A stretch of DNA of 64,000 nt from Cinnamomum chago. Its lineage: Eukaryota; Streptophyta; Magnoliopsida; Laurales; Lauraceae. Under the pieces are notes generated by a model, which saw nothing but the letters and a program-made list of their open reading frames with translations, was not told the origin of the DNA and searched no databases. The DNA lies in contig CP142452.1 in assembly GCA_038049695.1 (NCBI GenBank), positions 74,284,501-74,348,500 on the forward strand, in the 5' to 3' direction. Position numbers and translations under genes: made by a program. Below are positions 28,746-62,454 of the stretch, one piece after another. How positions within the stretch are numbered: the stretch's first letter is position 1; every line of letters starts with the position of its first letter.

Positions 28746-29430
28746 AAGTTCAGCATGAATCTCACTGTGGTTATCCATTTTCCTTAAGATTATTGATTTT
28801 GAGAAAACGAAAGGCATTGAAATGATCGAAGAGGTAGGGCCGATTTACAGATACTAAAATCCCAAGAGCCTATTTACAAATCATATATACCTTAGGGGGT
28901 GTATACAAAAATACTCCTCCCTAGATGGGCCCGAGTGAGGAACCACAAATTTCATGTAGTCTGACCCTTGGAGGGTCCAAGGGTCTTGACATTACAAGTA
29001 ATGTCTTCACTTTCTATATTAACCCCGCTGTCCAAGGTTACGTTAGCAGCTGAAGCATCCTAAATAGTCTGCGGTAGGAGCATTTTTAGGTGAAGGAGTG
29101 CAAGAATAACAAGACCGGGATTAGAGGAAGTTGGTGAAGTTAAGCAAACAAACACAGGAGTTTTTGACCCCTTAGCGTGTCGTAATATCTTTCCATTTCT
29201 TTCACCCTTTCAGTTTCCTTAGCCATTCCATCTTTCAAGTTTCAACCCACAAAAAAACAAAGATTAAAAAAAACACTAAAGAAACATCATCTGAGGTTGG
29301 TGTGAACTGTTAACCTGCCTCATTCTCATCTGAGTTTCATTCAATCTCATTACCTTATAATGCTTGGAACCTCCTCTCTAACAAATACAAGAACTTGAAT
29401 TGATAGGACCAGTCCCAGAAAGAAAGAAAA
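28746..29430 (+). promoter_or_regulatory. Upstream region of the GPAT gene
   Basis: Likely holds promoter and 5' UTR. A CTATATTAA sequence near 29016 and TTATAA near 29354 are candidate TATA elements, but neither can be chosen from sequence alone. Confidence 0.3.
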
Positions 29431-31665
29431 ATGGAGCATATGGAAGGGGAAAATTCCGATGAGCAGCCGCAACCGGAATCCGTTGTATCGGAGCTTGAAG
29501 GCACCCTTCTCAGGGACTCTGACCCCTTCTCTTACTTCATGCTCGTCGCATTCGAAGCGTCGGGGTTGGTTCGATTCGCCGTTTTGTTGATTGCATGGCC
29601 CATTATTTGTATGTTGGATGCTGTTGGCATGGGGGACGCCGGGCTCCGGTTGATGATCTTCTTGGCTGTTGCTGGAGTCCGGTTGACGGAGATTGAGTCG
29701 GTGGCGCGTGCGGTCCTGCCCAAGTTTTATATGGATGATGTTGATATGGAGGTGTGGAGGGTGTTTAGCTCTTGTGATAGGAGGGTGGTGGTGACCAAGT
29801 TTCCTAGGGTTATGGTGGAGAGGTTTGTGAAGGATCACTTGTGTGCTGAAGAGGTGGTTGGAGTTGAGCTTGATGTTAACCGGTTTGGATTCGCCACTGG
29901 GTTCATTAAGAACATGAATGGTGGCATCTCTGAACGGGTGCAGGCCATGTTCAAGTATGACCAGGCTGATTTAGGGTTAGGGAGGCCCACAACAATTCCT
30001 TCATTATTTCTTTCCCATTGCAAGGTAAGCAAATAAACAAAAATACATGCACATGAAAACATTAATGTTGCACAATTCAAATTGTGACTGAATCCTTAAT
30101 TAAAGTCAATAAAATAAAATCTAAATGCATCATACATAGAAATGAAACAAATAATAACGTACGTACAATCTTTTAGGTTGGTTACTATCATAATTATGCC
30201 CTCCCCCAAAAATATAATTGTAGAATTTTTATTATGTTTATATTTTTATTTGTACCACCTAATTAATCTTCCATAACCCTTTTGTAAGTTTTGGATCCTT
30301 TGCTGTGATTACAGCAGGAGCTTTCCTGCCCCATCTGAAAATGGGACATGCATCATGTTTTTAGGACCCATCTGAGCCCATCAAATAATGGGGTATATAT
30401 ATTAAGATTAAGAATCTACCAATATTCACCTCCATAACCAAGTTTTTAGGCCATGCATGGAATAAACAACTAGATAGTTGAATAGGGGATTGTATTGATA
30501 CCAATGTTTATTTGATTTAAGTGTGACTGAATTGAGACTATGCCCATTGCCAATTTAAGTAGGATATATGTAAGCGTTATTTTGAGCAGTTTGGATTTAT
30601 AACCATGGGCTGATAGATGATCCACATATCCTATTATTCATTATAAAGGATCTCATCTATTAACTTGCAAATTAATCTCCAGTTTAGTTCACGTAAAGCT
30701 TTACTAGCTTGCATGGTTAAAACCATTAATCACCACAAAGTTTTTTTTTCTGTTTGCAGACAGTCCATCATCGACCGTTCATCGTTGATCACAACGACGA
30801 TCACCAACTGATCCGACCACATCCGGTCATCTTCCACGATGGCCGTCTAGTCCGTCGGCCTACACCATCAATGGCTCTCGTCATCCTTCTATGGATCCCC
30901 ATAGGCATATTAGTAGCCATAATACGTATAATAGTTGGCATGATACTGCCCATGTGGGTCATCCCCTACACAACCCGGCTCTTCGGCGGGGAGGTCATCG
31001 TCAAGGGCCGGCCGCCACCCCGGGTATCTGGTGCCACCTCCGGTGTACTATTTGTGTGCACCCATCGCACCCTAATGGACCCTGTGGTCCTAGCCATAGT
31101 CCTCCGCCGCAAGGTCCCCGCCGTCACCTACTCAATTTCCCGCTTATCGGAGATCCTATCGCCGATCCCCACAATCCGATTAACAAGAGACCGGCAGGTG
31201 GACGCAGAGCGCATCAAGGAGGAGCTAGAGAGGGGTGACCTAGTGGTGTGCCCTGAGGGTACCACATGCCGGGAACCCTTCCTACTGAGGTTCAGCGCTC
31301 TCTTCGCCGAGCTCACCGACCGGATAGTGCCGGTGGCGATGAACTACCGCGTCGGGCTCTTCCATGCAACAACGGCGAGGGGTTGGAAGGGGATGGATCC
31401 CATCTTCTTCTTCATGAACCCTAGACCAGTTTATGAGGTAACGTTCCTAAACCAGCTGCCGGCAGAGGCGACTTGCTCGGCCGGGAAGAACCCATATGAT
31501 GTGGCCAATTATGTGCAGAGGATCCTAGCAGCCACATTAGGGTTTGAGTGCACCAACTTCACCAGGAAGGACAAGTACAGGGTGCTGGCAGGGAATGATG
31601 GAATTGTGGCCTCTACACCATATGTAGAGAGTATAAAAAAGGTGGTGGGAGCTTTCATACACTAG
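29431..31665 (+). CDS. GPAT5: sn-2 glycerol-3-phosphate acyltransferase, GPAT5/GPAT7 type
   Basis: Exons 29431-30024 and 30760-31665, joined across CAAG|gtaagc and tttgcag|ACAGTC in phase 0, encode 499 residues (land-plant GPAT5 is about 500). The N-terminal HAD-like half has ELEGT at 21-25 where bifunctional GPAT4/6/8 have a DxDGT phosphatase motif. Both Asp are Glu, as in GPAT5/7, so it should make lysophosphatidic acid rather than monoacylglycerol. The PlsC half has HX4D at 300-305 (HRTLMD), the IRLTRDR block at 337-343, [10 protein letters not shown] at 363-372 and IVPVAMNY at 387-394. Hydrophobic segments at about 45-62 and 235-265 suggest an ER membrane protein. GPAT5-type enzymes transfer acyl groups from acyl-CoA, including omega-oxidised ones, to the sn-2 position for suberin. 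The first ATG is used; another lies three codons on. Confidence 0.95.
30025..30759 (+). other. Single intron of the GPAT gene
   Basis: 735 bp, gtaagc...tttgcag, with a T-rich tract before the acceptor. No embedded feature recognised. Confidence 0.9.
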
Positions 31666-37674: not shown

Positions 37675-40600
37675 ATGGCTTCCTCTTCTTCATCAGCTCC
37701 AACATTTCCTTATCCCTCCACACTCAATGTGGGCAACTTTGTCTCCATCAAGTTAACTCAAACCAACTTTCTTCTATGGAAAAATCAGATCATGGGACTC
37801 ATTGAAAGTCAGGACATGACTGGTTTCATTAATGGGGAATACCCTATTCCTCCCCATCCTCAACTTACTGATGCTACTCATGGACAAGACTCTGCAGAAC
37901 ATAAGAAGTTTACTGCATTGAGGCGATCAGACCGCCTACTTCGTGGGTGGATTACTGGCACTTTGTCTGAAGAAGTGCTTGGATTGGTGGTTGGCATCAA
38001 CTCCTCAGCAGAAGTTTGGCAGGCTCTTGAAAGTTCCTTTGCAAAAGAATCTCAAGAAAGAGAATTCTACTTAGTTCAACAGCTACAAATGCATCGCAAA
38101 GGTAACTCTTCTCTTGATGATTATATTAGAACTTTTAAAGGCTATTGTGATGACTTATCTGCTATTGGTAAGCCCATTAGTGATCGCTAGAAAGTTTTTT
38201 CTCTCCTACGAGGCTTAGGACCTGCTTATGAGCCTTTTGTTACCTCGATGCTCAAACCCCCCACACCATCTTACAAGGAGCTTATTCCTCTTCTCCAAGG
38301 ACATGAGACTACGAGGCCCATGTATAATTCAGATGGGTTTGTACACCCAGATCCAAATGTGGCCTTTTTTTAGCCAGAAACAAAATATAGGAAAACACTT
38401 TTATCAAAAGAGTAAATCAAATGGGGCTTTTACATCCACTGGACGTGGCTTCACACTAGCTGGCCAACCACCAACCCGGGACCAAGGTATTTTGGGTGAG
38501 AAACCTTAAGTTCAAGCTGCTAATCACCAACCTCAAAATGATAGACCGGATAAAGGCACTGTTTGTCATATTTGTAACAAGCCGAATCACTCCGCAATGC
38601 GATGTTGGCATCGGTTTAACCAGACCTATCAACCTGGTACTGCGGCTCAAGCCCTTGCAGCGATTAATCTTGTCGACTATCACGATGCCTCGTGGTTCCC
38701 TGATACTGGCGCTACAACACACATGACTTCTGATGTGGGTAAGTTAGAATTTCTTTCCCCTTATCACGGCTCAGATAAAATTCTTGTTGGAAATGGCACT
38801 GCTCTGGATATCACCCATACTGGTTCTGCTTGTGTTAAATATGGAGGACATGAATTACAGCTAAATAATGTGTTGGTAGTACCAGAAATCAAGAAAAACC
38901 TCCTCTCTGTTAGTCAAATAACTTCCGAATACCCTTATCTTTTTGAGTTCTCATGTGATGGGTTTGTTGTAAAGCACAAGACCACAGGGCAATTGATTGC
39001 AGCTGGACCTAGAACTGGAGGATTGTGCTCCCCGCATCCAATAAACAGAGAAGCCATGTTCGCCACACGGTTTCGGGTCACTAGTGATGAAATTTGGCAT
39101 CAACGGCTTGAGCATCCACATATGCTTGTTGTTGATTTGCTAAAGAAAAATAAACTTATTGTCAGTATGAATAAGTCTCCTTCTGTACGCATTTGCAATA
39201 GTTGTCAGTTGTCGAAAGCTTGCCGCTTACCTTTCTTAAACTCTGTTCATTGTTCCAATAACCCATTCTTAGTAATTCACTGTGACTTATGGGGATCGGC
39301 CCCTATGCTTTCTTGTCAACAGCTTCGCTACTATATTATTTTTGTGGATGAATGCACTCGTTATACATCGTATTTTCCACTCAAGAAGAAATCAGACTTT
39401 CTGCAATGCTTTCTTGATTTTTACAAGTATGTGAAAACCCAATTTGCAAGAAAAATTCAAGTTTTTCAATCAGATGGAGGGGGTGAGTTCAGTAACAAAC
39501 AATTAAATTCCTTTTTGTCCCACAAAGGGATAATTCATCAAAAATCATGCCCACATACCCCTGAGCAGAACGGGTTAGCCGAAAGAAAACATCGCAATGT
39601 TACCGAATTGGGACTGACATTATTATTTCATGGGCACATTCCTCTCAAGTTTTGGGTCGAAGCATTTTCCATGGCAGTTTGGCTAATTAACAGACAGCCT
39701 TCACGTGTTCTCAATTGGCGTAGTCCTTATGAGAACCTTATGGGAAAGTCTCCTGACTATGGATCCTTAAGTGTATTTGGCTGTAAGTGCTTTCCCTATC
39801 TCAATGACTATGCGACCAACAAGTTTGATCCACGTTCACTACCATGCGTGTTTCTTGGCTACAATAACACTTACAAAGGCTATCGTTGCTACTATCCTCC
39901 TAGTGGTCGAGTTTGTACTTCTTGATATGTTGTCTTTGATGAACAAGTTTTTCCTTTCAAAAACCCCAGCTCTTTGTTCTCTATTACTGGTAATAATGGA
40001 GAAATAACAACATTTTCTGAGTGGGTTTCAGGTGCCTCGGAATCAATTTCCTCTTCTTCTCCACCATTTATATCATCTTTGCCAGGAGCTAATGATGCAA
40101 ACACTAACCCATCTTTGGTTGATCCAAATGTCCACTCCAATGCTACTAATTGTGTGCCACAGCTGCATCATGATGTCACCTGCATTGACTCTGCTCATGC
40201 CAACCTTATTAATGATATTCATCAAATGCTTCATTTAGTGACTTGCCACATGCTACACACTCAATACATGCTCCATCTGATGACTTGTTACATGCTGCCT
40301 AGCCATCCCATGATGCACCGTCTGCTGTCCACATGTCCCACGAGGGCCCAGTTGTTGCTTAGATTGCCCCACCGGCATATCACCTCACTCTTGGTGATTT
40401 TCCAGACAATGCACTCTCACCATCAGATTTGCCATCTGCTTCTCAGTCGACACAGAGTCCTCCCTCCTTCACCGATGTTTTTGCCAGCAGCCACCATATG
40501 ATCACTCGAGCCAGGTCCGGGATTGTCAAACCTAACCCACGATATTCATCTCCAGATTATGTCCTTAATGCAGAACTTATTCCCAAGGAACCACAATCAA

Positions 40601-42113
40601 TTAAATTTGCGCTTAAGCACCCTGGGTGGGTCTCTGCTATAAAAGAAGAAATTGATGCATTGAATTAGAATGGTACCTGGAGTGTAGTTCCTAGGGAGTC
40701 ACATATGAATGTTGTCGGGTGTAAATGGGTCTATCGAACAAAGCTTCGTGCAGATGGTTCTTTGGAACGTTTGAAAGCACGACTTGTTGCTAAGGGATTT
40801 AATCAGGTTGAGGGCGTTGATTTTTCAAAAACCTTTTCACCAGTTGTTAAGCAGGCCTCTATCCGGGTAATCTTAACAATTGCCCTTACTCATAATTGGG
40901 ACATAAGGCAGTTAGATGTTAAAAATGCATTCCTCAATGGGCATCTTAATGAGCAAGTATTTATGGAGCAGCCACCTGGGTTTGAAAACTCTGTCTATCC
41001 TAATCATGTTTCTCAATTGCAGAAGGCATTGACTTCGCCAGGCTCCACGGGCATGGTTTGACCTGTTCAGTGTGTTCTTATTATCTGTTGGATTTTTCTG
41101 TAGTTCTGCAGACTCCTCTCTCTTCATTTGTCATGGTCAGCAAGGCACTATCTTTCTGTTGCTGTACGTCGATGATATTATCTTAACTGGAAATAACCCT
41201 TCTTTTCTTACCTGGGTGCTCTGACGATTAAACCAAGAGTTTGCTATGAAAGATCTCGGGTACATTCATTATTTTCTTGGTATTCAAGCTCATCAATTTC
41301 CCGGTGGACTTTTCTTAAATCAGGCTAAATATGCTCATGAGCTTCTGGAAAGAGCTCTCATGCAAGATTGCAAACCAAGTCCTACACCCATGACACAGAA
41401 GCTTCAGTCCAGCTTTTCTAATGATGAGTTGTTTAAAGACCCACATCTTTATCGGAGTCTTGTAGGGGGTCTTCAGTACCTTACATTCACCCGCCCTGAC
41501 ATCTCATTCAGTGTCAATTACGTGTGTCAGTTCATGCACCACCCCACAAATTTTCACTTCCAATTAGTGAAACGCATCTTGCGATATGTCCGTGACCCTA
41601 TTACTTATGGTATTCGCCTACTCTCTAGCACTTCACTTGAGTTATGTGCATTCTCTAATGCGGATTGGGCAGGTTGCCCGCTTACAAGACGTTCTACCAC
41701 TGGTTATTGTACTTTTCTCGGTGCTAATTGTATCTTGTGGAGTTCTAAGAAGCAACCCACTGTGGCTCGTTTGAGTACTGAAGCAGAGTATCGTGCTCTT
41801 GCCTCCACTGCTGCTGAAATCATGTGGTTAACTTTTCTTTTACGTGATATTGGACTTTCTCTTTATCAGCCGCCTACTCTGTTTTGTGACAATCTCTCAA
41901 CTCTTCATATGATTGTCAATCCCGTGTTTCATGCCTGCACTAAACACATTGAGTTGGACTATCACTTTGTCTGAGAAAAGGTGGCACTTGGTTCTTTGGT
42001 AACTCGGTTCGTTTTCTCCACTGCACAGACTACTGATATTTTTACAAAGCCCCTCTCTCGTTGTCAATTTGAATACTACGTGACAAACTGGGTGTTCAGC
42101 CTACACCCACACC
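37675..42113 (+). pseudogene. Broken gag-pol of the copia element
   Basis: Gag starts at 37675 (MASSSSSAPTF) and is interrupted by TAG at 38188 and 38371. Protease WFPDTGATTHM lies near 38693. Integrase has the HX..H/CNSCQ zinc region (about 39091-39220) and the catalytic Asp-Asp-Glu set, with residues in HCDLWG, QSDGGGEF and PEQNGLAERKH, up to a TGA at 39923. Reverse transcriptase runs from about 40560 with a TAG at 40666, has a small deletion and frameshift near 41030, and retains LLLYVDDI near 41160. RNase H has STEAEYRAL and ends at a TGA at 41972 with residual frame beyond. Several stops sit where related elements have Gln or Arg codons. Confidence 0.9.
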
Positions 42114-45649: not shown

Positions 45650-46560
45650 CAGGATCGAATTAAGAAGAAACGGCGAATCAAAAACTTTTGACTTGGCCCG
45701 TCCTCTTCTCCATGTGAATCCATTGCCTCCATCTAACGCCGTTATTTCTAAACCAACCATATTCAAACACGTCTCACGCCGTTTAGTCGTTAACTCTCTC
45801 CTCTTTCCTTCAAAGCGCCCTCACCATGCACACCAGCAGATGCGTTTCGCCAAATCGAAGCTGCCATTTAAAATCCTTCCTCTCCTTTTCCCAAATCTCC
45901 CAAACTGCAGAAAATCTCCGATCCTATTCCCAGCTTTCTCCCTCTGTCGGGATTCGGCTCTCATTTCCAGGTTTTCTTCATCTTCTCTCCGATACTTTTT
46001 TTTTTATCCGATTTCAAGGAAAGCGGTTTCGTTTGCTTTCCTTTTTTAAAGTGAACGATCATTCTGAGATTTGAAGGGGAAAGAAGGGATTTTGTGTTCC
46101 GAAATCGCTTCTAGGGTTGATTTCGTTACGATCGGGAAGATTGTTGTTGAAGAAAATACTGGTGTTTTTGGTTTCTGTTTGATCTTTTCTTCCTAAGGAG
46201 TGGAATTCTAGGGCTTTTGTTGTTTGATTGGATGGGATTTGAAGGAAATGAAGGGCTTTAGGGGTCATTCTCTTTGAAAAGATGAATTTTTAGGGCTTTT
46301 TTTGGGGGGGAAAGGAGAAGAATTCCTCTTCAATTGGAAAGGAAGTTGAGGAGAAAGGAAGGATTTTTGGAATTCTTCTCCAATCGGAAGGAATTCGAAG
46401 GAATCTAGGGTTTCTTTGAACTGTTTGTTTGGGATTTGAAGGAAAGGAAGGACTTTTAGGGCTTTTCTTCCAGAAAGGAGAAGAATTTCTCTCCAGTCTG
46501 AAAGCATTTTCAGAGGAAAGGAAGGATTTTTAGGGTTCTGGTTCGAAAATTCCATCTTCG
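45650..46560 (+). promoter_or_regulatory. Promoter-proximal region and probable long purine-rich 5' leader of the RDUF gene
   Basis: CT-rich sequence at about 45860-46020 gives way to GA-rich sequence with repeated modules. GGATTTGAAGGAAA(T/G)GAAGG occurs at about 46227 and 46432; AAAGGAGAAGAATT at about 46311 and 46475; GGAAAGGAAG at several sites. The transcription start is not visible. No coding sequence conserved here. Confidence 0.45.
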
Positions 46561-47718
46561 ATGGCGACGTCGGCTTCTTCCTATTGGTGCTACCGCTGTA
46601 GCCGCTTTGTTAGAGTTTTGAACCGCCACGCCGCTGTCTGCCCTGACTGCGATAGTGGGTTCATAGAGGAGGTCGAGACCCCACCTCACCGGGCATCTCG
46701 CCGCCGTTTTCCTCCGGCCGCAATGTACATGCTCGGCAACCGCCGGAGTTACAATCAGAATGCCAATTTCCATTTTCGTCAAGGCCGCCGGAATGGTGGC
46801 AATGGACTGCCGCCGTTGGATCCTGTGATTGTCCTCCGCAGCCCTACTGATAGTGGTGGAACAGATGGCCATGGTGATGGTGGTGGAAGCTATGAGCTCT
46901 ACTATGATGATGGCGCAGGGGCAGGCCTCCGGCCACTGCCGACGAGAATGTCCGAATTTCTGATGGGTTCGGGATTCAATCGTCTTCTTGAGCAGCTATC
47001 TCAGATTGAGATCAATGGCAGTGGGCACTGCGAGCCCCCGCCTGCATCAAAAGCGGCTGTGGAGTCAATGCCCACAATTGAGATAGCTTCTAATCATGTT
47101 ATCACAGATTCGCACTGTGCTGTTTGCAAGGAGCCTTTCAAACTCGGCTCCCAAGCGCGAGAAATGCCCTGCAAACACATTTACCATTCAGATTGCATTC
47201 TGCCTTGGCTTTGTCTCCGCAATTCTTGCCCTGTATGCCGACATGAATTGCCCACAGATGCCCCTGGTAGGAATTCACCAGAATCGGATACATCATCACC
47301 AGACGAGCAATCTTCGGCCAATGCTGAAGAAGACACGGTGGGGTTAACTATATGGAGGCTTCCAACAGGTGGGTTTGCAGTTGGAAGGTTTTCAGGCAAT
47401 AGACAATCTGGGGAAAGGGAGCTTCCTGTTGCATATACAGAGATGGATGGGGGTTTCAATACTGGTGGTGCACCTAGGAGGATATCCTGGTCTTCGCGGG
47501 GCAATCGGTCGAGGGGAAGCAGCGGGATTGGTCGGGTGTTCAGTAACTTCTTCTCCTTCTTTGGGCGGCTTCGGTTTTCGTCTGGGTCTTCTCAAAGGAA
47601 CCAACCAACAGGTTCTAGTTTGAGTAGAATTTCAACGAGTTCGGGTTTCAGTAGAAGTTTTCAGGGGCAAGCAGGTACTTCAATGTTGGAAGATGAAAAT
47701 GGATTTTCAAGATTGTGA
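46561..47718 (+). CDS. RDUF: RING-H2 E3 ubiquitin ligase with DUF1117 (RDUF1/2-like)
   Basis: Intron-less, 385 residues. The N-terminal zinc ribbon has YWCYRC...CPDC (Cys 10, 13, 27, 30). A linker follows with the conserved FNRLLEQLSQIE (139-150). The RING-H2 domain spans 186-226 with C186, C189, C204, H206, H209, C212, C223 and C226 all present, plus the Trp (217) that usually contacts the E2. The DUF1117 block runs about 259-340 (VGLTIWRLPTGGFAVGRFSG, then IGRVFSNFFSFFGRLR). This order is that of Arabidopsis RDUF1 and RDUF2, E3 ligases linked to ABA and drought responses. Substrates cannot be inferred here. The ATG at 46561 is chosen because the zinc ribbon begins at residue 8. High confidence in family, moderate in one-to-one orthology. 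Confidence 0.95.
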   Translation: MATSASSYWCYRCSRFVRVLNRHAAVCPDCDSGFIEEVETPPHRASRRRFPPAAMYMLGNRRSYNQNANFHFRQGRRNGGNGLPPLDPVIVLRSPTDSGGTDGHGDGGGSYELYYDDGAGAGLRPLPTRMSEFLMGSGFNRLLEQLSQIEINGSGHCEPPPASKAAVESMPTIEIASNHVITDSHCAVCKEPFKLGSQAREMPCKHIYHSDCILPWLCLRNSCPVCRHELPTDAPGRNSPESDTSSPDEQSSANAEEDTVGLTIWRLPTGGFAVGRFSGNRQSGERELPVAYTEMDGGFNTGGAPRRISWSSRGNRSRGSSGIGRVFSNFFSFFGRLRFSSGSSQRNQPTGSSLSRISTSSGFSRSFQGQAGTSMLEDENGFSRL

Positions 47719-54150: not shown

Positions 54151-54513
54151 TCGCAATGTGGCTTTAAGAGCTCCACTTGAATGCTTAAAATATCCCACTA
54201 GTACCCATTAATCATAGTGTGACTAAGTGTAACTAACTCCTAGCTATGAAATTTTCTGTTGATGACAGACACCAATCCAACACATACAATCTGTGTCAGA
54301 GCAAGAATGAAATCCATCCATAAAAGGTGGATCTAAAATTGGATACACCATGGTTCCACTTCCACCCCATTCGCTTGCATCCCCAGTTCTAAGTTGCGTG
54401 GCTTTGGTACTCCCGCGGTGCACCTTCCCTTCTAACTGTACTAGTCTTTAATGCATTTATACCATAGTAACCAAATCAACCCATAGGAGAAAGAGAGTCA
54501 AGCAAAGCCCTTC

Positions 54514-56230
54514 ATGGCCTCCTCTTCCATGAAAGCTCTCAAGTCATCATCTCTAATCCTACTAATCATCTTACTATCTCTACAAAGCTTCCAAGCAAGA
54601 GGCCACGGAGGCCACGACGACGGCGACTCCTCCCCCACCGCCGATGGGGAAAATTCGGTCAATTTGCACTCCAAAGGCCTTGTTCTAGTGAAAATATGGT
54701 GCCTGATCATACTCCTTGGGAGCACCTTTGCCGGAGGGGTATCACCATACTTCTTCAGATGGAACGAGGCCTTCCTTCTCTTGGGCACCCAGTTCGCAGG
54801 TGGGATCTTCTTGGGGACCTCTTTGATGCATTTCTTAAGCGATTCCAATGAGACTTTCGAGGATCTTACATCCAAGTCATACCCCTTCTCTTTCATGCTT
54901 GCGTCGGCGGGTTATGTGCTGACCATGCTTGGCGATTGTGTGGTGATGTTGGTCGTGAAAGGCAGTAGTAGTGGAGAAGCCAAGGTGGAGGTTGAGGATG
55001 GAAGGAGAAGAGCAGCAGATGAAAATGACATGTCATTAGAGTTACACCCAGCTTTTGTGAAGACCTCATCTTTAGGGGATACTGTGCTCCTCATCCTGGC
55101 TCTTTGTTTCCATTCTGTGTTTGAAGGAATCGCAATTGGAGTTTCTGGTAAGAGGTTCTTTTCAATTCTGATGCTTTCTGTCTAATCTGATGGATTGGTG
55201 GGCCATTTGGCCCAGCCCGCCTATAATCTGTCTATGGGTCAAGAGTACGGACTCGAATTATTGGCCTGTTTAGTAAACAAGTCATGCTTGAGGTTATGCA
55301 CGATGAAGGTGAACCTGACCCATATTGTAATCAATGGTTCTTGGTCTTGGGCTCAAAGTTTTAGCAGATGCTTATTGATAATTTCCCTTGTTTAGATTCT
55401 ATAAATACAACATCTCCAGATGAACTTGGTTAATTACTTGGAGTCAATCCAATGTATAACCAATTTCTGCATATATTACAAACATGTTACAAACACCAGC
55501 CACTCGCATCTAGGACTTGTTTGTGCAATCAGAGGGTTAAATGCTTTGTGCATTTCTATTTCTACTAGCAGAGGGGTCATGTATTTCTCCTCTCCTATAG
55601 GAAATTAAAATCCTCTCCATTGAGAAAAATGTCTGTTTTTTTTACTTGTCCACAAGAAAGTCATGTTACATTGAACAAAGGAACAGTGAGTTGCACCGAA
55701 ACTTAAAACAATTTTCCTCTCTTTTACAAAATCCTTGTGTTACAAACTCTTAGTATATAGCAAGTTCATCATCATGCATTGGTTAGCTTGGATAGGCCAT
55801 TTCTCTTCTATGTTCCTGAAGGACTAAGACACTTCCAGATTCAAAGGCGGATGCATGGAGAAACCTGTGGACAATATCATTGCACAAAATATTTGCAGCC
55901 GTTGCCATGGGAATTGCACTGCTTAGGATGATCCCACAGAGGCCCTTTTTAACAACAGTAGGTTACTCTTTCGCATTCGCTGTCTCAAGCCCCATTGGAG
56001 TGGGGATTGGGATAGCCATTGATGCAACAACTCAAGGTACTGTTGCCGACTGGATCTACGCCATCTCCATGGGTCTTGCTTCTGGGATCTTCATTTATGT
56101 GGCCATCAATCACCTCATCACAAAAGGGTTCAAACCACAGAATCCATGTTACTTTGACAAACCCTTCATCAAGCTCTTGGCAGTGATTCTTGGTGTGGGA
56201 GTGATGGCAGTAGTCATGATCTGGGATTAG
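54514..56230 (+). CDS. ZIP2: ZIP-family zinc transporter, ZIP2/ZIP11 type
   Basis: Exons 54514-55147 and 55839-56230 (TTTCTG|gtaaga, cttccag|ATTCAA; the split codon becomes Asp 212) encode 341 residues, the usual ZIP length. A signal-peptide-like hydrophobic stretch at 10-29 is followed by a short His/Asp-rich GHGGHDDGD. Transmembrane segments fall near 56-75, 86-106, 126-148, 188-210, 228-248, 254-274, 282-302 and 322-340. TM4 has the family signature [11 protein letters not shown] (H200, E204) and TM5 has [11 protein letters not shown] (H227), the metal-binding positions. The loop between TM3 and TM4 lacks the HxH repeats of many ZIPs. The C-terminal CYFDKP...VVMIWD is typical of ZIP2. ZIP proteins bring zinc, and in this clade possibly manganese, into the cytoplasm. 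Upstream shows no clear zinc-deficiency response element. Confidence 0.95.
55148..55838 (+). other. Single intron of the ZIP gene
   Basis: 691 bp, gtaaga...ttccag. No embedded element recognised. Confidence 0.9.
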
Positions 56231-58523
56231 GGAAGCTGTCATGAGTTCATAGTTATCTGGTTGAATGTAATAAGTTTGGTGCCTCCATTCAAAAAAGTTT
56301 GCATATGTGAGTGTAGTCTTCCATATGAGTTACTCCCAAATTATTGGTTTCTTTTCATCTAATTCAATGGTTGGGTTGTGTCTTAGATGTTGCACATTTT
56401 TTCCGCATTATAGACAATTGCAATGTGAGTGTGTTCGACAGGGGATGGCAGTTCCTGGTCCAATCCCACCAGCTAATTCGCAGTTTGAATTGACATTTCT
56501 GACTTGATTAATAAATAAGTTGGATTTAGTGAAGTACATTATAATTTATCAACCTGGCAGCCCAACAATTGTACAATGGCCTACCAAACCAACTCGAACT
56601 TGCCCTGTTAATTAAGAATCTAGGTTTTGTTTTTCACTGTACTTGACAAATGGGTCGAGTTAAAGTTAACCTATACATGAACACCCATTTCAATCCGGCT
56701 CATTGCCACCCCTAGATTAGATGTAGTACAAATGCTTTTTGTCCAATGCCTCCAAAGTAAGTGAGGCTGATGGGATGTGATATATTTCATCATTCCATGT
56801 TATAGGAGAGCCAATTTGTTGGCAGATCAATGAATATATTTGACACACTTGGAATTAATCCAAAGGTTTGGATAGCTCCAAGCAAGGAGCTAGGGCAATG
56901 GAATTTGTGTCAAATGTTGATCATAGGAAGGTGATGGGGATTACGGGCCACCTAAATGACCCTGATCCATAAGTATATGAGTTTCAATTGAGAGGTTTGG
57001 ATCGATTCTACTATTTTCCAAATATTTTAGTCAACATGTATGGTGGTATTGTAGAGGCACTTGTGGGACCAAATACTTGAACTTCTCACATGGGCCCTTG
57101 AATCGGAGACATTGATGAATGGGCAGGGGTGAGGATTGGTGGAAGGATTGTAATGCAATTTTGGAAAAAACATAGAGGGCATACTTTTAAAGTTAGGTTG
57201 TGTTATGTAGCTAGATGTGGTGTGATGTGATTTGGGTATTCTTGATAAGAAGAGCATTTTAGGTTGTGTTATGTAGCTAGATGTGGTGTGATGTGATTTG
57301 GGTATTCTTGATAAGAAGAGCATCCCATCCTTCATGGCAAGGGTGGTCTACATCATGGGGCCACACTGGAGAGGAATGGGATTGGGCCCATTGAAACTGG
57401 CAAATTAATCAAGCCTTATCCAACTATGGTAATCAATACTAAGTTGTTGGTATTTTCAACCATTTAATAGCTAGATGTTTAATTTCAAATAATTATGCTT
57501 GAGGTTTGGAGTTACTAATTTAAAAAATAATAATTTAAAATTTATATTCCATCATTTAAATTTGATATTTGGACTCATAGATTATGTACTAAGCAAGAAC
57601 CTTTTTTCCTTAAATTTTATTCATTATAGTATTTTTTTTTGTATATGTAAGTTTATTAATTTGAATTGATGATCATAAATGCATGTACTAGCTAGATGTA
57701 TATTTGTATATTATAAATATTTGATCCATTTTATATATTTACTAAATTATGCTTTAAAACGCGCATGACTCTCTTTAGTCACCACTTTGATCCTCTCCGG
57801 TCAGTTTTTTGTTGCATTTGATGGATTGAGTCCAGATCATGAGTTTCCAACCTTGATTAATATAGGTATAAATACCTCTTCACTAACGTTTGGATTCCAT
57901 GGTGCTTTAGAAATACTGTTCCAACTCCCTTCCATAATGAATGGTTTCTTATGGTCTTTATGAAAAATAGTTTATTTTCTCCTATTCTCAAGTTCTTGTC
58001 AGTTCTCTGATGTGATCTGTATTCAGTATGTAACGAAGGTATTATTCAATAAAAAAAAAAAGGTGTTGCACCTGACAACAAAAAGATGGCAAGCGTGTAT
58101 ATTAGAGGTTTTTTTGTGAAGAATCCTTGATGTAGCACAAATGTGCCCTACCATTTGTTTCTTAGATTTTCAAAAAAGATTTATTGGGCAATCTACAAAT
58201 TTTCCAAATAACATCCCCAGTAGGTCTCCAAAATGCTGAAGTACAACCTAGAATTTCGGAGAAACCCAAAAGCCAAAAGTATAGGGAATTAAATGTCCAT
58301 AAACAACAGCTAATATTGTTCTAAAAAACTTAAATATATGGAATTTCCATCAAAACTTTCTCAGAAGCCCTTAGATTTCTCTCAAATACCAATAATCTCT
58401 TGAATCTCAAAATTTCTCTTTGATTATAGACAATGACATTATTATATGCTTTAGAAATCAATAAACCCATTGATTAGTACAAATTTAAATACAAATCAAA
58501 ACTAATCAATATCAATATCAATG

Positions 58524-59798: not shown

Positions 59799-60038
59799 GT
59801 ATAGAATCCTTTTATTCTACATCAATGTCATATATTTATTTAATATATAAAATAAATGATCCAAGGAAAAAAGGTCCCTCACATGGGATCTATACCTGAT
59901 GCAAGATAACGATAGAGAGGGAAATTTAATTGCTTTCATCAATGTTGAGGCTCTAGATTTTACATGAATGTTGAAGCATCAAAACTAATCTCATTGCAAG
60001 CATGTGCAATAAGTTTTATCACTACTACAAAAATGAAG

Positions 60039-60358
60039 TTTACCGACGCAGTCAATGCGTCGGTAAAATTAAATATGCGTCGGTAAATAAATTTACCGAC
60101 GCTACATGCGGCGTAGGAGGAAAATCGTAGGGAAATATATTTGCCGACGCATTGACCGCGTCGGGAAGTTGTTGTTAAATTTACCAACGCTAACGGCGTC
60201 GGTAAGCTTCCGCAAAAACCGCTGCACGGTGAAATTAATGGTAAAAGTTACCGACGCCATTGGCGTCGGTAACTTTATTTTATTCTTAAATTACCGACGC
60301 CATTGGCGTCGGTAAATTTATTTTATTCTTAAATTACCGACGCCATTGGCGTCGGTAA
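60039..60358. repeat. Left subterminal palindrome array of the CACTA element
   Basis: Palindromic units near 60039-60066, 60075-60116 (partial), 60141-60167, 60181-60206, 60248-60272, 60291-60315 and 60334-60358. The last three are tandem 43-bp units with 12-nt arms TTACCGACGCCA and TGGCGTCGGTAA around a single T. Confidence 0.92.
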
Positions 60359-60451
60359 CTTTATTTTATTCTTAAAAAATTACTCAGGCCCATGTGTCCT
60401 TCCGCTTCCTCTTAACCGGGATCAGAGAAACGCAAACCAAGGAAGTAAAGA

Positions 60452-60916
60452 ATGGCGACGGCAAACACACACTTCCTTTCTCTTTCTCTCATTATTCTTC
60501 TCCTCCTCTCCCTCCACTCATTTCCCATTCAGTCAAAATGCCAACCTCAAACTCCACAGCAAAAAGAGCAGCGAATCCTCCTAAAACTCAAAAGAGAATG
60601 GAGAAACCCACCTTCCCTCTCAAATTGGAGGACGATGGAGTGGAATGGCGACCATTGCTCCTGGCCAGAAATCACATGCACGAATGGGACCATCACTGAA
60701 ATCGTTCTTCAAAACAAGGACCTCTCCAACCCAATCTCGTCCTCCATCTGCGACCTCACAAACCTCACCAAAATCGACCTCCACTGGAACAACATCCCCG
60801 GCCCTTTCCCCATCTATCTCTCCAACTGTTATTATAATATTAAAAGGGCTAGCGTTATTATAATATTATTCGGTTTCCTATTTTATAACAGATCAAGGAG
60901 CTATGACGGTGATTAG
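60452..60916 (+). pseudogene. Captured 5' fragment of an LRR receptor-like kinase (subfamily XI, HSL1/At5g25930-like)
   Basis: An ATG at 60452 opens a frame of 154 codons. Residues 1-29 form a good signal peptide. Residues 38-76 are an LRRNT cap (RILLKLKREWRNPPSLSNW, then CSWPEITC). Residues 85-126 are the first leucine-rich repeats (ICDLTNLTKIDLHWNNIPG). Homology stops at about residue 126 (60829), followed by AT-rich sequence with a 14-nt direct repeat (TTATTATAATATTA at about 60828 and 60855) and a stop at 60914. The remaining LRRs, membrane segment and kinase are absent. It lies wholly inside the CACTA element, so it is a transduplicated fragment that could at most give a short secreted LRR peptide. 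Confidence 0.85.
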
Positions 60917-60939
60917 ATTTCAAATCATTATACGATTGT

Positions 60940-61200
60940 TTTCTGTTTGGAATGTGATTAGGTTCCTACAGAGATGGCCAGAGACACTGTAAACATTGAA
61001 GAACAATGGCAGCAAAAGGGGCACCAAAAGCCAATAACAAAAAAAAAAAAAAACCCCCAAATAAAACATTCAGATAGTAACATATTACTAAACTAATTAT
61101 CAGATAAATAAATAAAAAAAACACATACCGTAAGAAGAGAGAACATACGCAGAGAGAAGCGTGTGAAGAAGCGATGCAGAATGGTGATGAAAGGGGAGAA
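60940..61200 (-). other. Second possible captured segment inside the CACTA element
   Basis: On the minus strand, TTCTTACG|GTATGTG near 61127 resembles a splice donor, and a T-rich stretch followed by TTCAATGTTTACAG near 60985 resembles an acceptor. They flank an AT-rich ~140 bp intron-like region. The exon-like flanks have no recognised domain, so this is inference. Confidence 0.25.
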
Positions 61201-61254
61201 GGGGAAAGGAGAAGGGGAAGGGGAAGGGGAAAAAGTTGGGTACATATAATAAAC

Positions 61255-61695
61255 TTGCCGACGCCATATGGCGTCGGTAAATTTCTCCCAATAAACTTAC
61301 CGACGCCGTACAGCGTCGGCAACTTTCTTCCCAATGAAGTTGCCGACGCCATATGGCGTCGGTAACTTTCCTCCCACAATTCCTGCAATACAGCTGGGAA
61401 TTCCCGACGCTTATGGCGTCGGGAAATTCTTGGATAAAACTTACCGACGCCCTTGGCGTCGGGAAGTTTTTTGGTCAACCCCGGGAACGAAAATTGAAGC
61501 GGGAAACGGGTTGGCGCGAGGAAGTTCCCGACGCCAGGGGCGTCGGGAAATTCAACATCATGACTTACCGACGCCATTGGCGTCGGGAAGTTGTCCACTC
61601 CGACGAATCATCCGTACAAGACATTTACCGACGCTATCTTTTTGTAATAGCGTCGGTAAAATTATAAATTACCGACGTTTTTATTGCGTCGGTAA
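61255..61695. repeat. Right subterminal palindrome array of the CACTA element
   Basis: Nine units near 61255-61280, 61298-61323, 61340-61365, 61401-61425, 61441-61465, 61524-61549, 61564-61589, 61624-61659 and 61669-61695. Loops differ (ATAT, GTAC, CCTT, AGGG, a longer one in the eighth) while the CCGACGC/GCGTCGG stems are kept. Confidence 0.92.
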
Positions 61696-62454
61696 GTTCT
61701 CCGTCGTCTATCTTCACTTTTCTTGTAGTGTATAATTAAGAATTCTATTAAATTAATGGCCTATTGTAGGAATTTCAATGGGCCAGTTTCCGGACTGGCC
61801 CATTTCTACTATTTATAGGGATTGAACGGCCTGAGTTCAGGTATATATTAGGTCCTAGATACTAAGTTCGAGCCTGCCTACTCAAAAAATATGGTGGGTT
61901 GAGATTGCCCCTTAAAGGTCGGGTTTCATACTACGGTTTGAGTCCGGGTGCACATAGGATCATCTCGCTCAAACCACACGATAAAAAAGTATTGAAAATA
62001 TATGACAACTCTTTGAATGCCTCAGTTAAACAAAGGCTCAAGTCCATTTAACATCTGAGTTAAGTTGATAAGTTCTATGAGGTGGTCCCACTGAGATGGT
62101 GCATGGGTTAAATTTATTAAATTCTCTAAAACTTTTGTGGGGTAATACATAAGTGAAAGAGATTGTTATTTTTGGATCATAAGATCTACATAATGGGCCC
62201 CCTTAAAAATGTCTTTTGTGTTATTTTTTAAAGATTAACTTTAATTTTAGGGGATATTGATTGAGAGACTTAATGGAATAGAGGATATGGATAAAGAGAT
62301 TTTTTTGGAGAAAAAATTGTGGCATGTGATGACATGACACCTTAAAGCACTCTATGTTTTTTCTCCATGTTTATTTGAAAGGAGAATAATTGGGTGCTGA
62401 GGTGGCACCCCCCACAGCCCACCTCTCCTATTGCTTTAATATATATAATATGGG

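Follow-up and report, generated by a model that had tools for sequence, protein, structure and literature searches.

Palindromic CACTA arrays and Pack-CACTA elements are both already described, as far as the available portions of the reports cited here go. In soybean, the subterminal arrays of Tgmt* can form 14 stem-loops, two at the left end and 12 at the right, and Tgm1 has a similarly complex subterminal pattern (PMC2613891, available text). The same text records that subterminal motifs vary between species and among soybean subfamilies, and states that whether the repeated motifs of Tgmt* are recognition sites remains to be determined. It also reports that TnpA recognizes the subterminal repeats of maize En/Spm, with which the candidate binding arrays described below may be compared. 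For soybean TgmR*, a stabilized revertant line is more methylated, and the authors propose that binding to the subterminal repeats has been lost (PMC4219821, available text). In Arabidopsis and elsewhere among plants, non-autonomous Pack-CACTA elements carry host gene fragments, some of them from several loci (PMC8903248, available text).

Here we describe a non-autonomous, gene-capturing CACTA (Pack-CACTA) element that belongs to this already described type and differs in motif, array evenness and cargo. It is complete, 1,711 bp long, and occupies positions 60020–61730 of the window, by which we mean the whole 64-kb stretch of DNA analyzed (G000:C2:74284501-74348500). The TIRs are imperfect: the left one, CACTACTACAAAAATGAAG (60020–60038, plus strand), and the right one, which reads CACTACAAGAAAAGTGAAG as its reverse complement (61712–61730, minus strand), are identical at 16 of 19 bases. 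The left flank ends in TTTTAT and the right flank begins with TATAATTA, giving a 3-bp TAT target-site duplication on either side (60017–60019 and 61731–61733). Membership of the CACTA (En/Spm) group follows from TIRs that start with CACTA, both in this copy and genome-wide, from the 3-bp duplication, and from subterminal motif repeats in either orientation. Membership among the Pack-CACTA elements follows from a host gene fragment enclosed by these ends, an LRR receptor-kinase exon whose donor (L026) lies elsewhere in the genome. Captured fragments and right-end sequence explain most of the interior. The first-pass annotation had proposed a complete Pack-CACTA element at this position, and its ends, TAT duplication and host-gene cargo have all been verified.

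The element shares with the soybean Tgm elements (Tgmt*, Tgm1 and TgmR*) its CACTA ends, 3-bp duplication and arrays in which direct and inverted motif copies can form stem-loops, as the available text describes them (PMC2613891). Its motif is unlike that of Tgmt*, which has TTGGCAG and AATCTTACAG where our element has TTNCCGACGC (PMC2613891, available text). Relative to the Tgm elements as described there, the arrays are also more even (seven and nine units), the cargo is an LRR-kinase exon, and the two longest frames, when scanned, yielded no transposase of the element's own, LRRNT_2 being the sole Pfam match above the cut-off. Like published Pack-CACTA elements, it carries fragments from more than one locus, although its cargo and host are unlike theirs in the available account (PMC8903248). 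As described, the Tpn1 family of Japanese morning glory is alike in that its members have common subterminal regions enclosing diverse captured gene fragments; host and cargo differ (PMC8195511, available text). In the literature searched, matches to GCGTCGGTAA were confined to papers with seemingly unrelated titles, and no paper was found that brought together TnpA, subterminal and tail-to-tail.

Several other features surround the element in the window. The nearest recognized gene among eight frames scanned outside it is a ZIP zinc transporter, whose exons (PF02535, 1.1e-19 and 7.7e-26) lie at 54487–56227 and end ∼3.8 kb to its left. Farther away, Pfam matches identify a NABP domain gene (512–2023), a RAM2-like glycerol-3-phosphate acyltransferase (29407–31662) and a RING-finger/DUF1117 protein (46534–47715). 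Copia-type retrotransposon reading frames extend over 38510–41971, with gag_pre-integrs, rve, Pol_BBD and SH3_retrovirus matches in Pfam at 38510–39922; the frames onward to 41971 look reverse transcriptase-like by eye. At 57193–57323 a 66-bp unit occurs twice with 100% matches, so this tandem duplication is very recent. A separate palindrome, ATGGGCCAGT-TTCCGG-ACTGGCCCAT, lies at 61778–61803, 48 bp past the right end of the element, with which it has no motif in common.

To place the element within a family, we searched the genome (1.06 Gb in 14 contigs, with genes of flowering-plant type) for its ends. With up to three mismatches, the left 30 bases matched 79 places and the right outer 30 bases matched 57, the window included in each count, and the reversed controls matched none; the other copies whose existence the first-pass annotation had made a test of its reading are therefore present. 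Joining opposed ends up to 40 kb apart gave 48 pairings of 463 bp to 25 kb, leaving 31 of the 79 left ends and 10 of the 57 right ends partnerless within that distance and mismatch limit. We read 41 distinct elements (the window copy, 39 others and one on contig C9), and six of the 48 pairings were left unread; L032, which is nested in L065, shares its right end and has no matching duplication, was dropped from the counts of 40 given below. A perfect 3-bp duplication flanks 38 of the 41 elements, that is, 37 of 40 plus the C9 element (GAT/GAT). Among the same 40, shuffled flanks gave a 3-bp duplication in 2.1 elements on average and never in more than nine, and duplications of other lengths were found in 7 (2 bp), 1 (4 bp) and 0 (5 bp). 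The TAT duplication is thus genuine and not a coincidence. The three elements without a matching duplication include L035, which carries the same cargo as the window copy.

Two loci in this search stand somewhat apart. L042 and L046 (G000:C8, ∼3.80–3.81 Mb) lie 9.5 kb from each other; their 8-bp flanks are nearly identical and both have the duplication AAT, which points to duplication of a local segment and not to two separate insertions. At G000:C1 15.437–15.472 Mb, four right ends spaced ∼5–16 kb apart sit amid palindrome arrays, none with a left-end partner within 40 kb at up to three mismatches; this is perhaps a locally amplified element. The exact pattern CCGACGC-N5-8-GCGTCGG occurs at 607 places genome-wide, counted irrespective of family, and its reversed control at none. 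In public collections the CCGACGC/GCGTCGG pair occurs once each in three viral and 11 bacterial contigs, which, judging from the match lists, we take to be isolated palindromes without relation to the family. Viral contigs contain no exact match to the right end of the element.

Longer members with the same ends encode a transposase. L067 contains a tnp2 match (PF02992, 3.2e-102), and L070 contains tnp2 (PF02992, 9.2e-83) together with DUF4218 and DUF4216 frames. The C9 element has an 857-aa stop-to-stop frame with Transpos_assoc, tnp2 (4.2e-102) and DUF4218, and DUF4216 lies in a separate frame. A tnp2 match is also present in three unread pairings, C6:27593109, C11:30343765 and C10:60487182, of which the latter two span 19 and 25 kb and may join ends of different elements. 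With 150 of 1,658 candidates scored, tnp2 is found in at least six of the 48 pairings, three of them read, and the autonomous partner that the first-pass annotation had proposed seeking is matched by a tnp2-coding class with the same ends. L068 contains Transpos_assoc and DUF4216, and the three of its frames that were scanned lack tnp2. The long soybean Tgm elements likewise combine tnp2 with a second function or gene, according to the available text (PMC2613891, PMC4219821). Here, a similar second reading frame is present in L067, L068, L070 and the C9 element. Its Pfam matches are coiled-coil-like and below threshold, with none above the cut-off, and its position beside tnp2 and its appearance by eye make it a candidate TnpA-like binding protein.

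Examination of the subterminal regions of the window copy reveals two dense arrays. The 64-kb window contains 34 exact copies of CCGACGC, 30 of them within the element, whereas whole-window shuffles contain 0.42 on average and at most three. The 12-bp TnpA motif of maize En/Spm, CCGACACTCTTA, resembles CCGACGC at its start. Counting as a palindromic unit any pair of opposed half-sites with no more than one mismatch in either 7-bp core, the element holds 16 CCGACGC/GCGTCGG units, in agreement with the ∼16 expected from the first inspection. Seven units of TTNCCGACGC half-sites, together with a lone half-site at 60077, form the left array (60040–60358). The other nine form the right array (61255–61695), in which spacers measure 5–7 bp apart from one 15-bp slot at 61625–61659. 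Both cores are perfect in 13 of the 16 units, the third arm base is paired in nine, and the 10-bp arms are fully complementary in seven; the units may be called near-perfect, as they had been, but not perfect. Internal to the right array, a stretch at 61079–61247 (minus strand) is common to other family members, and in L067 and L068 its match has the right array on one side and the transposase-gene frames on the other.

The left array also contains three tandem 43-bp copies with 97% matches (60248–60376, plus strand), as first described. These copies differ from one another by 0–1 bases in the window and by 0–2 in L038, and this low divergence in the window copy indicates recent duplication or conversion. 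Measured against the window's unit, later 43-bp-like units in other members with at least two of them carry 2–12 differences. There are three such units in the window copy, three in L038, four in L062 and one in L035, which relative to the window has a 53-bp deletion within this stretch. Taken together, the differences in unit number and the L035 deletion indicate that arrays grow and shrink; tandem copying had been proposed as the route of growth, and losses are seen as well. Across 40 elements, slots close to the left end tend to be constant in spacing, with 53.5 bp found ∼33 times, 47.5 bp 24 times and 39 bp 23 times, and the inner spacings are variable. The right spacings of 40, 42, 84 and 65 bp resembled helix multiples, and we considered helical phasing of the units. 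The period scan had no peak at 10.5, where the resultant for all right spacings was 0.46 against 0.55–0.57 at periods 13–14; distinct right spacings gave 0.25 against 0.29 at 14, and left spacings 0.18 against 0.32 at 12. Phasing was therefore rejected.

The family provides a means to ask what the arrays are conserved for. If hairpins were the functional feature, a change in one arm should be accompanied by a matching change in the other. If protein half-sites were what mattered, the sequence of each arm should be preserved in its own right and the loop should drift. We collected 465 units, 215 of them distinct, from 40 elements (the C9 element is not included), pairing each core with the closest one in opposed orientation no more than 30 bases away and allowing up to one mismatch per core, a rule that misses decayed units and under which complementary double changes at one position are still detectable. 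At nine informative positions, the 215 distinct units show 178 one-sided changes and two two-sided changes, one of them complementary, whereas 5.5 two-sided changes would be expected if the arms were independent. The third arm base is usually A, G or C and lacks a complement in 110 of the 215 units; the 105 in which it pairs exceed the shuffled level (81, sd 5.5), an excess that probably reflects shared slot ancestry. Outside this base the arms do not covary, and we reject hairpin selection as the main constraint. The hairpins had first been presented as an unusual and possibly functional feature. That claim is not supported, given the lack of covariation, the frequently unpaired third base and the publication of similar arrays for Tgmt* (PMC2613891, available text).

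Conservation along the arrays was assessed in alignments of 40 ends (the 41 elements including C9, minus the 463-bp L031, which a length filter removed). At the right end, cores and the outer TT/AA have mean mismatches of 0.043 and 0.018, whereas inter-unit DNA and loops have 0.127 and 0.124 (permutation p 0.0001). The left end shows the same contrast less strongly, with 0.078 for cores, 0.043 for TT/AA, 0.117 for inter-unit DNA and 0.111 for loops (p 0.0055); both p values assume independent columns, which is not quite the case. The third arm base lies near background (0.098 right, 0.121 left). CpG columns taken alone are less variable in right cores than between units (0.053 against 0.162) and more variable in left cores than in the six left between-unit columns (0.095 against 0.068). 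Gaps are as frequent in cores (0.081 and 0.086) as between units (0.038 and 0.079) or more so, and in this respect the cores are not protected. The half-sites are thus conserved and the arm pairing is not, the half-site being the 10-bp TTNCCGACGC. The suggestion that these are binding-site-like arrays accordingly gains from the comparison, as cores and TT/AA change less than loops and inter-unit DNA. We infer that the arrays offer paired sites to a protein that most likely binds as a dimer, with TTNCCGACGC as the putative half-site of a dimeric TnpA-like protein.

Two other readings of the arrays deserve consideration. The palindromes might act as structures, either as DNA cruciforms or as read-through RNA hairpins that give rise to small RNAs silencing the family. 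Predicted RNA folding is indeed far beyond shuffles for the left array (60030–60380; z −13.0) and the right array (61245–61705; z −13.5), with 0 of 100 shuffles as good in either case, and the CpG-dense cores carry 93 CpG transitions among 182 arm changes, as frequent methylation of the sites would produce. However, inverted half-sites by themselves account for the folding potential, and CpG decay points to methylation, not to its cause. Selection on structure should have kept the pairs, against the 178 one-sided changes seen, and loops and third arm base vary like background; we consider a structural role quite improbable. Alternatively, single half-sites might be the functional unit, with pairs and palindromes a by-product of inverted or tandem array duplication. 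Changes do strike one side at a time, the lone half-site at 60077 has no partner, and one slot has a 15-bp spacer (38 of 465 units across the family), which is longer than a rigid dimer would favor and counts against the dimer reading. Against this, the opposed half-sites are 5–8 bp apart in 424 of the 465 units, though the pairing rule and slot inheritance both favor that regularity. We regard single half-sites as rather doubtful, and paired sites for a dimer remain our preferred reading.

The cargo lies between the arrays. Positions 60374–60828 (plus strand; element positions 355–809) contain the start of an LRR receptor-kinase first exon, comprising 5′ leader, signal-peptide-like start, LRRNT_2 (Pfam, 3.8e-06) and first LRR. 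This segment is identical at 438 of 455 positions (96%) to L026, the best match in a donor cluster of related matches at G000:C2 ∼108.3–109.0 Mb; over the stretch read, L026 is by eye a longer receptor kinase. Among solved structures, the top sequence match of the cargo is AT5G25930 (1.5e-24). A short run of A is shared at the left cargo joint. On the other side, an 18-bp filler (60829–60846) looks templated, in that its TTATTATAATATTA repeats a stretch 26 bp downstream. Beyond it, a second captured fragment (60847–61020, end approximate; plus strand) matches G000:C1:27742437-27742560 at 97% over its longest part, with two shorter matches beyond, and contains internal deletions relative to both the C1 locus and L062. 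L062 has a longer match to the C1 locus (377 bp, 97.3%) and is absent among the LRR-cargo matches. One of these deletions, 86 bases missing relative to L062 and C1:27.74 Mb, was considered as a precise intron loss and rejected: the two sides overlap by 3 bp (TAC) at the joint, where no GT-AG signature was seen, so deletion through microhomology explains the gap more simply.

The same LRR cargo and right joint recur in L035, L038 and L066. The window copy, L038 and L035 are separated by 12–15 substitutions, L038 differing from the window at 14 of 1711 positions. Plant sequences accumulate substitutions at ∼1e-8 per site per year, which would place the divergence of these copies a few hundred thousand years ago. 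A 154-aa ORF (60452–60916, plus strand) runs over the captured exon and continues into filler and second fragment, which raises the question of whether the exon is functional, encoding a secreted fragment (signal peptide, LRRNT and one LRR) with an effect on receptor signaling. The frame is open in all three near-identical copies, and the donor's start codon and 5′ leader are included. Yet copies only 12–15 substitutions apart are too young to reveal selection, and in L066 a ∼3-kb insertion interrupts the exon. We consider such a function very improbable indeed. L066 also retains, by eye, part of the second transposon gene.

The explanation that we favor for the element as a whole, and consider quite probable, is a Pack-CACTA element mobilized in trans, with arrays bound by a dimeric accessory protein and cargo captured stepwise. 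Longer same-ended members would supply what mobilizes it, a transposase of the tnp2 type together with an accessory protein that binds DNA; near-identical copies at different loci, such as the window copy with its TAT and L038 with its own duplication, GGA, argue for this. The transposase would act on the CACTA ends, leaving 3-bp duplications. A TnpA-like accessory protein, perhaps the product of the second gene beside tnp2, would bind as a dimer to the arrays, in which each palindrome offers two 10-bp TTNCCGACGC half-sites usually 5–8 bp apart, and duplication or deletion of ∼43-bp units would change array size. Cargo would have been acquired in steps, as the contig C1 fragment and the LRR receptor-kinase start from C2. 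In the published model, Pack-CACTA elements acquire cargo when neighboring insertions are re-mobilized (PMC8903248, available text), whereas the junctions here, with their brief stretches of shared sequence and filler that looks templated, would fit interrupted gap repair. The order of events may have run from a coding element through internal deletion, capture of the C1 fragment, capture of the LRR exon and further trimming to spread.

A further possibility is that the array is a methylation-gated switch, in which accessory protein and silencing machinery compete for the same bases; the idea draws on the two CpGs in each half-site and on the retention of each half-site as half of a dimer site. 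We consider it distinctly doubtful. If true, array length, through the gain and loss of 43-bp units, would tune the ease of mobilization or silencing. The half-site data and the stepwise capture leave the general picture of CACTA elements unchanged. Within that picture, one genome preserves an apparently stepwise capture of gene fragments in which donors and intermediates can be identified, and the 465 units from 40 elements form a compact natural data set on whether subterminal motifs are recognition sites. Conservation of the motif halves without conservation of their pairing bears on the recognition-site question left open for Tgmt* in the available text of that report (PMC2613891).
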